Of a stretch of DNA of 14,735 nucleotides, positions 4,495 through 14,735 are shown piece after piece. Positions within the stretch are counted from its first letter, which is position 1. Each line of letters starts with the position of its first letter. Source of the DNA: Deltaproteobacteria bacterium RBG_13_61_14 (lineage in GTDB: Bacteria > RBG-13-61-14). A model generated the notes under the pieces. The model saw only the letters and a program-made list of their open reading frames with translations. It was not told the DNA's origin and did no database searches. The stretch lies in the NCBI GenBank assembly GCA_001797815.1, contig MGQK01000047.1:1-14735 (forward strand). The letters run 5' to 3'. The position numbers were made by a program, and so were the translations under genes.

Positions 4495-5328
4495 TTATGG
4501 TTTTACGCCAGATTGTGGCGTTCCAGAAGGCGGAACCTTGACACCAACTTCAGATTTCATTGAAGTATCCAGCGAGGAAGGTTCCCTCACTATTCTCTTG
4601 GCTTTTCTTTTTGGCAGAGAAAATTTGATTGTATCCATTTCTTCGAGAGCCTCAGCGTTTAAAAGACACTCGATTGCCTTGAGTAATTCGGGGGGAGACA
4701 CTTGAACACCAGATGATTTCCTCAATTCACGACGCAAAGCTTTGATCAACTTTTCAGAAATCAAGGTTGCAAGAAGGTTGTGAGGAGTCAATGCTTTCAT
4801 TGACTTGGAAAGCTTATCAAGGCCTTTTTTCTTAAGGTTTTTATAGCTAATCAACTGAAATTTTCTTCCCAAATCCTCCAAAGAATCTTTTAGAAGATCC
4901 CAGTTTTCCACCAAGGTGGTTTGCGGAGGATCTCCTGATACAAGATGCAATTGCCATTCTCTCCCGTTGGTTAAAAGCACCCAGGCACATCCACTTTCGA
5001 TGGCGTAATGGGTAACCTGTTTAAGATGCTTTTCGGCTAAATCTACATTCACCGCTTTTATTTCCAAAATAACATCGGGTTTTGCCCTTTTCCCATCTCC
5101 AAGCCGAATTGCGAAATCGCAATGTTCATCCGTTCCACCATAAGCCCTAACTGCCGTTTCTCGGGATATGTGCTTAAAGACGTCATAACCCAAAAGCATT
5201 TCGAAGATTCTTTCAATCCGACTCCTGGTTTCCGCTTCGTTGCCATCGGTTTTTTTAACCACTTCAATCAATTCGCGAGCTTCGAGTATCTTCTTCTTGG
5301 TCTCTCTATTCAACTTGGTTTTTTTCAT
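4495..5328 (-). CDS. Stand-alone PD-(D/E)XK nuclease-like protein (type I restriction HsdR N-terminal domain family)
   Basis: A 277-residue cytoplasmic protein. Residues about 35-135 match the pattern of the HsdR N-terminal nuclease domain: helix SRIERIFEMLLGY (36-48), a motif I Asp in CDFAIRL (D71), PDVILEIKA with E89-x-K91, and QVTHYA (Q104, Y108) like the Q-x3-Y motif. DNA cleavage is thus possible, but no helicase, specificity or methylase subunit is present. Many such orphan domains are annotated as restriction endonuclease-like proteins of unknown role. The C-terminal half (about 150-235) is helical and charged, and the tail is Ser/Pro-rich. A strong GGGAGGAG ribosome site precedes the ATG. 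The K+ channel gene ends 19 bp before this start codon's first base, so the two are very probably co-transcribed. Base composition is clearly more AT-rich than that of the chemotaxis genes, suggesting acquisition by transfer. Confidence 0.8.
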   Translation of the reverse strand: MKKTKLNRETKKKILEARELIEVVKKTDGNEAETRSRIERIFEMLLGYDVFKHISRETAVRAYGGTDEHCDFAIRLGDGKRAKPDVILEIKAVNVDLAEKHLKQVTHYAIESGCAWVLLTNGREWQLHLVSGDPPQTTLVENWDLLKDSLEDLGRKFQLISYKNLKKKGLDKLSKSMKALTPHNLLATLISEKLIKALRRELRKSSGVQVSPPELLKAIECLLNAEALEEMDTIKFSLPKRKAKRIVREPSSLDTSMKSEVGVKVPPSGTPQSGVKP

Positions 5329-5347
5329 TGGATTCTCCTCCCTCAGT

Positions 5348-6148
5348 TTATTCTTTCAGCACAATCTCTTTCCCGCAATGCGGGCAAACATTAATCTCTT
5401 GCCTCTTGGATTGAATTTCTTTGATAAAGCCAGAACTTAAAACCCCAGCGGGCAAAGCAAAAAGACCGATACCGAGAAATGCAATCAAAGATCCAAGTAA
5501 CTTACCCAATGGTGTAATGGGATAAATGTCGCCGTAACCAACTGTTGTCAGTGTAGCGACTCCCCACCACATTGCCGCGGGAATACTCGAAAAAGCTTCG
5601 GGCTGAATTTCATTTTCGACGTAATACATAAGGCTGGAAGCAATCACCAGCAAGATCACGACGGCGAAAATGGTAATAAGCATCTCTTCTTTTTTATCTT
5701 TCAGCACGTTTGCTAGCGACTTGAGAGAACCCGAGTAGCGGCCAATTTTAAAGATTCGCGACATCCGGGCGAGCCGAAGGGTTCTGATAAATCTCAAATC
5801 CAATGGAATGACCATGGGCAAGTAGAAAGGAAGAATCGCAAGAAGGTCTATTAAGGCCAAGGGAGAGACCAAGAACTTTAGTCTACCAATTATCTTTCCT
5901 TGATAGCGTTTATCGCAAGTTGCGAGCCAGACACGAAGCAAATACTCGACCGTGAAAACAGCAACCGAAAAAACCTCGAAAATATGTAAAATGCCGGAAT
6001 ATTCAGTTTCAATGCTCTTAACGGTTTCCGAAATGACGGCTAAGACATTTAGCAGGATTAAGGTGACAATGAAAAGATTGAAACACCTGGCGTAGCGGTC
6101 TGCCCCTGAAGATGGCTCGATGATCTCAACCATGCGATTCTTAAACAT
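5348..6148 (-). CDS. Voltage-gated-type potassium channel, six transmembrane segments
   Basis: A 266-residue inner-membrane ion channel subunit, expected to act as a tetramer. Segments S1 to S4 fall in the first ~145 residues. S4 is the Arg-rich stretch LRFIRTLRLARMSRIFKIGR, characteristic of voltage sensing. S5, a pore helix, the K+ selectivity filter TVGYGD and S6 (LLGSLIAFLGIGLFALPAG) follow. The short cytoplasmic tail ends with CPHCGKEI, half of a zinc-ribbon-like knuckle. I chose the ATG at 6148. A TTG at 6166 would add six residues (RRRTQ-rich), and an ATG at 6133 is also possible. It is the first gene of a pair with the downstream nuclease-like gene. The AT-richer composition matches its partner rather than the neighbouring core genes. 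Confidence 0.92.
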   Translation of the reverse strand: MFKNRMVEIIEPSSGADRYARCFNLFIVTLILLNVLAVISETVKSIETEYSGILHIFEVFSVAVFTVEYLLRVWLATCDKRYQGKIIGRLKFLVSPLALIDLLAILPFYLPMVIPLDLRFIRTLRLARMSRIFKIGRYSGSLKSLANVLKDKKEEMLITIFAVVILLVIASSLMYYVENEIQPEAFSSIPAAMWWGVATLTTVGYGDIYPITPLGKLLGSLIAFLGIGLFALPAGVLSSGFIKEIQSKRQEINVCPHCGKEIVLKE

Positions 6149-6184
6149 TTGCGTTCTTCTTCGCAAAAAGCTGATTTGTATTCA

Positions 6185-12528: not shown

Positions 12529-12557
12529 ATTATCCGGGGAAGGTTGCAGAGTGTCAA
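12529..12557 (-). promoter_or_regulatory. Consensus promoter for the TPR - iron-sulfur operon
   Basis: On the minus strand TTGACA (12557-12552), a 17-bp spacer and GATAAT (12534-12529) give 11 of 12 consensus bases with optimal spacing. The normal start, seven bases after the -10, is position 12522, which is the A of the TPR ATG. This is also where I would expect the operon promoter, given the divergent gene at 12784. Confidence 0.8.
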
Positions 12558-13572: not shown

Positions 13573-14448
13573 ATGGTCCAGTCCCGGCCTTCCCTGACTC
13601 TCCCGGCTCCGGCCAAGGTCAACCTCCACCTGGAAATCCTCGGCCGCCGGCCCGACGGCTTTCACAACCTCCGCATGATCAACCTGCTCCTGGACCTCTG
13701 CGATACCGTCCACCTGCAACTTAAGCCCTCCGGGCTCCGCATCCTCTGCCGCCATCCCCAGGTTCCCAGCGACCGGACCAACCTGGCCGCCAAGGCCGCC
13801 GAACTCCTGCTGCAGCAAATTCCGGAACCCCGGCCGGGAGCGCGCATCTCCATCCGCAAGCGGATCCCGGTGGCCGCCGGCCTGGGCGGCGGCTCCAGCG
13901 ATGCCGCGGCCACGCTGCGCGGGCTGGTCAGGCTCTGGCGGCTTTCCTTTTCCGAAGCCCGGCTCCGGCGCCTTGCCCTGGCGGTAGGGGCCGATGTGCC
14001 TTTTTTTCTTTTCGGCCGGCCCGCGTTGGTGGAAGGCATTGGCGAGCGGCTGAAGCCCTTACCGCCGATTCCGGACTGGACTTACCTCCTGGTCACCCCG
14101 CCCTTCGGGGTCTCGACGGCCTGGGCCTATGGCCGGTGGCGGGCTTCATTGACAAAACGACCCAAACTCCATATAATAAAAAATCTTAAAAATTCGGGAC
14201 ACCTCGAACTTTCCCGCGGGCTTAGGAATGACCTGGAACCCGTGGTGGTCCAGCGTTACCCTGTAGTGGGAGAGGTGAGGCAAGCCTTGGTGTCTTTGGG
14301 CGCTTTGGCCGCGGTGATGACCGGCTCGGGCCCCAGTGTCGTGGGCGTCTTCAAAAATCCGCATCAGGCGGGCAAGGCCAGTAAAAGCATCCGGCAGCAC
14401 TTCCCCGCGTGCCGAGCGGTGGTCACGCGGAGATGGAGAGCGCCCTAA
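13573..14448 (+). CDS. ispE: 4-diphosphocytidyl-2-C-methyl-D-erythritol kinase
   Basis: GHMP kinase of the MEP (non-mevalonate) isoprenoid pathway; it phosphorylates the 2-hydroxyl of CDP-methylerythritol with ATP in the cytoplasm. The 291 residues are normal in length. Visible motifs are PAPAKVNLHLEI near the start (catalytic-type K15), the ATP-binding loop PVAAGLGGGSSDAA (99-112), GADVPFFL with catalytic-type D141, NDLEPVV, and the C-terminal GHMP motif MTGSGPSVVGVF. The ATG at 13573 has no good ribosome site, but the frame and family start agree. An AT-rich patch (14149-14190, residues about 193-206) is unlike the rest of the gene in composition and contains a perfect promoter while staying in frame. 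The tRNA-Gln and prs follow. Confidence 0.96.
   Translation: MVQSRPSLTLPAPAKVNLHLEILGRRPDGFHNLRMINLLLDLCDTVHLQLKPSGLRILCRHPQVPSDRTNLAAKAAELLLQQIPEPRPGARISIRKRIPVAAGLGGGSSDAAATLRGLVRLWRLSFSEARLRRLALAVGADVPFFLFGRPALVEGIGERLKPLPPIPDWTYLLVTPPFGVSTAWAYGRWRASLTKRPKLHIIKNLKNSGHLELSRGLRNDLEPVVVQRYPVVGEVRQALVSLGALAAVMTGSGPSVVGVFKNPHQAGKASKSIRQHFPACRAVVTRRWRAP
14149..14177 (+). promoter_or_regulatory. Perfect consensus sigma-70 promoter inside ispE
   Basis: TTGACA (14149-14154), exactly 17 bp, then TATAAT (14172-14177): 12 of 12 consensus bases. The expected start is near 14184, about 370 nt before the tRNA-Gln gene and inside the ispE reading frame. It would drive tRNA-Gln and prs independently of the upstream genes. 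Confidence 0.8.
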
Positions 14449-14552: not shown

Positions 14553-14627
14553 TGGGGCGTCGCCAAGCGGTAAGGCGCGGGACTTTGGATCCCGTATCCG
14601 CAGGTTCGAATCCTGCCGCCCCAGCCA
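14553..14627 (+). tRNA. tRNA-Gln (anticodon UUG)
   Basis: The cloverleaf can be drawn completely. The acceptor stem is TGGGGCG (14553-14559) with CGCCCCA (14617-14623). The D arm is GCC/GGC, the anticodon stem CGGGA/TCCCG with loop CTTTGGA (anticodon TTG at 14585-14587), and the T arm GCAGG-TTCGAAT-CCTGC. The discriminator is G and the CCA is encoded (14625-14627). The weak first pair (U-A) is typical of bacterial tRNA-Gln. It reads CAA (and CAG by wobble). It lies 22 bp before prs, so the two are probably in one precursor RNA. Confidence 0.97.
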
Positions 14628-14649: not shown

Positions 14650-14735
14650 ATGGACCGCCACTTAGTGTTGCTCTCGGGCACGGCCCATCCGGAACTGTCC
14701 CGGAAGATCGCCGAATACCTGGGGGTCCCCCTGGC
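14650..14735 (+). CDS. prs: Ribose-phosphate pyrophosphokinase (PRPP synthetase), 3' partial
   Basis: Makes PRPP from ribose 5-phosphate and ATP for nucleotide, His and Trp synthesis. Only the first 28 codons are in the window, but they carry the family N-terminus: a short beta strand (LVLLSG), then T-A-HPELSRKIAEYLGVPL, equivalent to the usual SGNANPELAxxIAxxLGxxLG. AGAGGT lies about 8 bp before the ATG. The position after ispE and tRNA-Gln supports the call. Confidence 0.9.
   Translation, partial: MDRHLVLLSGTAHPELSRKIAEYLGVPL

Follow-up and report, generated by a model that had tools for sequence, protein, structure and literature searches.

A probable sigma-70 promoter within ispE upstream of tRNA-Gln and prs, conserved in several bacterial phyla

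A promoter motif in the ispE reading frame

An earlier note on a contig of Deltaproteobacteria bacterium RBG_13_61_14 had described a perfect match to the bacterial promoter consensus, TTGACA-17-TATAAT, within the codons of ispE, which raises the question whether protein or promoter constraint shaped this segment of the gene. The window, i.e. the complete stretch of 14,735 nucleotides that was analyzed, indeed harbors this motif at 14149-14177 on the forward strand, in frame 0 of ispE and starting at nt 576 of the gene (Table 1). It is the sole perfect match in the window, and none occurred in 200 dinucleotide shuffles. Based on the encoded amino acids and the codon usage of the genome (TTG 12% of Leu, ACA 4.2% of Thr, ATA 7% of Ile), the probability of finding both hexamers at this one fixed place is ~1.2e-4. 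The AT-rich patch is likewise present: the 45 nt from 14149 have a GC content of 24%, compared to a mean of 62% for coding windows of the same genome, and equally AT-rich 45-nt coding windows account for 1.1% of those in its sampled contigs. On the forward strand, neither a further promoter-like site between 14178 and the tRNA gene nor an intrinsic terminator between the promoter motif and the tRNA gene was found.

Table 1. Features of the ispE-tRNA-Gln-prs locus (positions in the window)
Feature	Position	Strand	Remarks
ispE, 4-diphosphocytidyl-2-C-methyl-D-erythritol kinase	13573..14448	+	Pfam GHMP kinase N and C domains
-35 hexamer TTGACA	14149..14154	+	ispE codons 193-194 (Leu-Thr); 6/6 consensus match
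17-nt spacer	14155..14171	+	length conserved among relatives, sequence not conserved
-10 hexamer TATAAT	14172..14177	+	6/6 match at 17 nt; TAnnnT core conserved
Predicted transcription start	14182..14184, most likely A14183	+	placed from the -10 position
tRNA-Gln(TTG)	14553..14627	+	confirmed; only close copy found in the assembly
prs (start), ribose-phosphate diphosphokinase	14650..14735	+	cut by contig end

The host genome uses the sigma-70 consensus TTGACA/TATAAT. The pattern TTGACA-N16-18-TATAAT matches 20 times in the 4.74 Mb genome and the backwards pattern not at all. Sixteen of the 20 matches lie outside predicted coding sequences, often shortly upstream of a gene, and one is located 16 nt before a tRNA-Lys gene. 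Among the 20, a position in the middle of a gene was confirmed for the ispE site alone.

The contig ends at position 14735, and only the first codons of prs are part of the window. A 3' part of prs is located at the start of contig C116 (G000 C116:3-436; L150, L151), and we infer that it is to be joined to the start in the window, the two probably representing one gene. On C116, prs is matched by two pieces (model positions 108-166 and 231-308) that do not share a reading frame and leave out about 65 positions of the model, which seems to reflect either a damaged gene or a fault in the assembly. Elsewhere in the window, a near-perfect promoter-like site, TTGACA-17-GATAAT, occurs on the minus strand at 12529-12557, before the gene at 12313-11480. 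Several promoter-like sites are also located near two genes on the minus strand at 4495-6166, whose products resemble by eye a type I restriction-like N-terminal domain (277 aa) and a potassium channel (272 aa).

Conservation of the motif among linked loci

The motif was sought in 240 ispE loci, comprising relatives of the window at various distances, named contigs, and about 130 loci from the phylum of a Desulfacinum genome. The IspE proteins were aligned and the site homologous to codons 193-194 was compared. Loci were termed linked if ispE is followed by tRNA-Gln(TTG) and/or prs, which applies to 165 loci outside the Pseudomonadota, from the Desulfacinum phylum, the phylum of the window and other lineages. 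The class and phylum of the window are represented by three genomes, those of G058 and of G059 (phylum level) by one each, and further loci were therefore sampled around named ones. Pseudomonadota were represented by ninety loci and E. coli K-12. With the phyla of the window, G058, G059 and Desulfacinum, the Pseudomonadota, and contigs of Deferrisomatales and Lindowbacteria, the number of phyla is a lower bound.

Leu-Thr is encoded at the homologous site in 132 of the 165 linked loci, and in 126 of these 132 it is spelled TTGACA, one of 24 possible spellings, always in frame 0. Per-locus codon usage predicts about 3.7 such cases in total; among loci with a GC content of at least 55%, TTGACA was found in 39 of 45, compared to an expectation of 0.43. 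Exactly 17 nt downstream, TA is present in 119 and the complete TAnnnT core in 101 of the 126 loci, whereas TAnnnT occurs in only 0 to 8 of them at each of 19 other spacings. The spacer shows no sequence conservation among linked loci, and the -10 core, although at a fixed distance, falls on differing amino acids. Relatives that share the gene order of the window, in which the earlier note had proposed to look for the motif, also retain it: L010 carries TTGACA-17-TATATT and L011 carries TTGACA-17-TATCTT before tRNA-Gln. Unlinked ispE genes, taken from genome contigs mainly of Clostridia and Armatimonadota, never contain TTGACA at this site (0/55) and encode Leu-Thr in only five of 55. These counts (126/165 linked versus 0/55 unlinked loci) may point to an association with gene order. 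The element extends well beyond this genome, to several phyla. In many linked loci the tRNA gene starts within a few nucleotides of the ispE stop codon or overlaps it, so that a promoter must be located inside ispE.

Several linked loci lacking TTGACA contain a near-consensus motif at the same place (TTGACG-17-TAGACT, TTGACT-17-TAAAAT, TGGACA-17-TAAAAT), and others have a promoter-like site within a long gap between ispE and the tRNA gene. A group of seven (L059, L069, L231, L245, L247, L256, L268) has a gap of 320-410 nt before tRNA-Gln and harbors TTGACG-17-TAnnnT, e.g. TTGACG-17-TAACAT, about 280 nt past the ispE stop codon, which is probably a relocated promoter. The median gap is 274 nt in loci without TTGACA versus 45 nt in those with it (Mann-Whitney p ~9e-5, uncorrected for relatedness); independent-pair tests on the tree for linkage or gap length against TTGACA were not significant and have low power. 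In some linked loci, the element is missing and nothing obvious takes its place.

Within the Pseudomonadota, TTGACA is located at the same site in 29 of 47 loci with the order ispE-tRNA-Gln-prs, in the protein context ELTRDTPPI, and YAnnnT follows 17 nt downstream in 27 of these 29. Of the 20 loci with tRNA-Gln and no detected prs, 18 are without TTGACA. A clade of six loci (L350, L352-L355, L357) has lost the -35 hexamer. It retains TAnnnT at the same column, and in all members except L353 TGn stands in front of it. An extended -10 element (TGn) is a known way to dispense with a -35 element, and this clade provides a natural example of a change of promoter type within a coding sequence. In the clade that includes the E. 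coli type, which mostly has no tRNA-Gln at this place, both hexamers are lost, and several loci still encode Leu-Thr by other codons. On the tree this loss is essentially confined to one clade. Exceptions are L319 and L330, which have tRNA-Gln and lack TTGACA, and conversely L333 and L341, from one lineage, which have kept TTGACA without the tRNA. The parallel absence of element and tRNA-Gln is suggestive of a link between promoter and gene, as an unreplicated event in a single clade.

Promoter constraint and competing explanations

The spelling of the site separates the two kinds of constraint. TTGACA at residue 193 is the most common in-frame hexamer of ispE in linked loci (71%), and the Leu-Thr pair at this position exceeds all others of the gene in synonymous uniformity (0.95 compared to a median of 0.20 at 107 other positions). 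The same hexamer scan found no comparable uniformity in unlinked ispE genes. Elsewhere in linked ispE genes, Leu-Thr pairs are spelled TTGACA in only nine of 276 cases. As the spelling is conserved beyond the demands of protein and codon bias, it is the DNA that is conserved and the amino acids that follow. This comparison of sequences answers the question posed at the outset in favor of promoter constraint, with a -10 core 17 nt further on.

A requirement of IspE for Leu-Thr and nearby residues, with the DNA motif resulting from codon choice, is accordingly very improbable. It would account for the high frequency of Leu-Thr at the site in linked loci and for those gammaproteobacteria that encode LTRNTP without TTGACA, but not for the use of a single spelling out of 24, for the rarity of Leu-Thr in unlinked IspE, or for a -10 core that covers differing amino acids at a fixed distance. 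Moreover, loss of TTGACA usually entails loss of Leu-Thr, which is kept in only five of 27 Desulfobacterota-type linked loci without the hexamer. An AT-rich patch that happened to spell the consensus could be accepted for one gene in a genome of 4.7 Mb, given the probability stated above; the recurrence of the same hexamer and spacing at homologous codons in more than 100 divergent genomes makes such an accident the least credible reading of all. There is hardly more room for a different conserved element, such as a regulator site or a TTG codon at which translation of a C-terminal IspE fragment would start. TTG is able to initiate translation and the site lies in frame 0, but the base table of linked loci shows no conserved ribosome-binding site upstream, the 17-nt spacing to a TAnnnT core is a signature of sigma-70, and the exchange of the -35 hexamer for TGn in one clade is that of a promoter. 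Furthermore, Rfam detects the tRNA alone at the locus and no structured leader. The 104-nt spacer between ispE and the tRNA gene has an ordinary structure (z = -0.95).

The motif is thus very probably a functional housekeeping promoter of the sigma-70/RpoD type, located in ispE, initiating transcription of tRNA-Gln and prs, conserved across phyla and fixing the Leu-Thr pair. The proposal of the earlier note that an intragenic promoter serves both genes is supported by these comparative data, with its strength and start site as predictions. A variant of this explanation, in which the promoter is real but tRNA-Gln alone is the selected product and prs benefits only by read-through, is a serious possibility, if somewhat the less probable one. 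It is in line with the position of tRNA-Gln as the first gene downstream, with the lack of a second close copy in the assembly, and with the loss of both hexamers in the clade mostly lacking the tRNA. P. aeruginosa fits as well, with PA4669.1 as its sole tRNA-Gln gene (PMC13041342); judged by its number, this gene adjoins PA4669, which is ipk, the ispE gene of this species (PMC3922391). On the other hand, 13 of 18 prs loci without detected tRNA-Gln in the samples of window relatives and of the Desulfacinum phylum retain TTGACA, as do L333 and L341, and the Pseudomonadota loci with tRNA-Gln only are mostly without it.

Proposed function and origin of the probable promoter in ispE

For a promoter serving both genes, RNA polymerase would bind TTGACA in codons 193-194 and TATAAT and initiate near A14183. 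The transcript would cross the last 265 nt of ispE and continue through tRNA-Gln and prs; a leader of ~370 nt would cover the 3' end of ispE and extend into tRNA-Gln, which RNase P would then be expected to release. In this way tRNA-Gln and prs would be supplied independently of transcription from upstream of ispE. Purifying selection on the promoter, not on IspE function, would keep TTG ACA, and Leu-Thr would be a by-product. Such selection could be strong because tRNA-Gln is often present in a single copy, as in P. aeruginosa, and the copy here is the only close one found in the assembly. From its sequence, a simple housekeeping role fits the element best, with no sign of regulation here. 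The -10 hexamer is followed by an AT-rich stretch, whereas stable-RNA promoters under stringent control in E. coli have GC-rich discriminators.

The element shares with known sigma-70 (RpoD) promoters the two hexamers, the 17-nt spacer, the predominant conservation of T1, A2 and T6 in the -10 hexamer, and the use of an extended -10 (TGn) instead of a -35 in one clade. It differs from them in its location inside a protein-coding gene and in being retained there at a single pair of homologous codons in different phyla. Intragenic promoters as such are known. A recA-internal promoter of Mycobacterium tuberculosis, for example, drives recX (PMC3062782), and there, too, a promoter within one gene drives the next; conservation over several phyla and the link to a tRNA gene set the element in ispE apart. 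E. coli ispE does not carry this element; it has CTCCCG at the homologous site and no -10 hexamer there. The best promoter-like site in E. coli K-12 (L293) is TTGATG-18-TAGAAT at ispE nt 664. Its putative start is located 301 nt upstream of prs, in agreement with a prs leader of ~302 nt reportedly described in the literature of the 1980s. This candidate is also located inside ispE, but 88 nt further 3' (nt 664 versus 576) at a non-homologous position; its match to the consensus is weaker and no tRNA-Gln lies between ispE and prs. In the open-access literature searched on ispE, prs, tRNA-Gln, lolB and internal promoters, neither a description of this element nor a promoter conserved to a comparable depth was found.

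The agreement in position, phase and spacing makes a single common origin likely, and we consider it reasonably probable that one ancestral promoter was present in ispE before Pseudomonadota, Desulfobacterota and the other phyla split and has persisted at the same codons. Repeated origin under the same pressure is less likely. If ancestral, the element would rank with the most deeply conserved individual promoters of bacteria, and RNA polymerase would have dictated a Leu-Thr pair of IspE ever since these phyla separated.

Bacterial promoters usually turn over quickly and are thought to evolve fast, in contrast to the slow evolution of proteins. In ispE, a promoter seems to be frozen within the coding sequence over inter-phylum distances, with fixed spacing and fixed codon phase, and apparently sets two amino acids of an unrelated enzyme of the isoprenoid pathway. 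This provides a natural system for studies of dual coding and a warning that conserved residues in protein alignments can reflect a function of the DNA. The element also helps to locate, in many bacteria, the promoter of the often single-copy tRNA-Gln and of prs, and thereby of PRPP supply. Knock-outs or recoding of ispE would remove the promoter of tRNA-Gln and prs.
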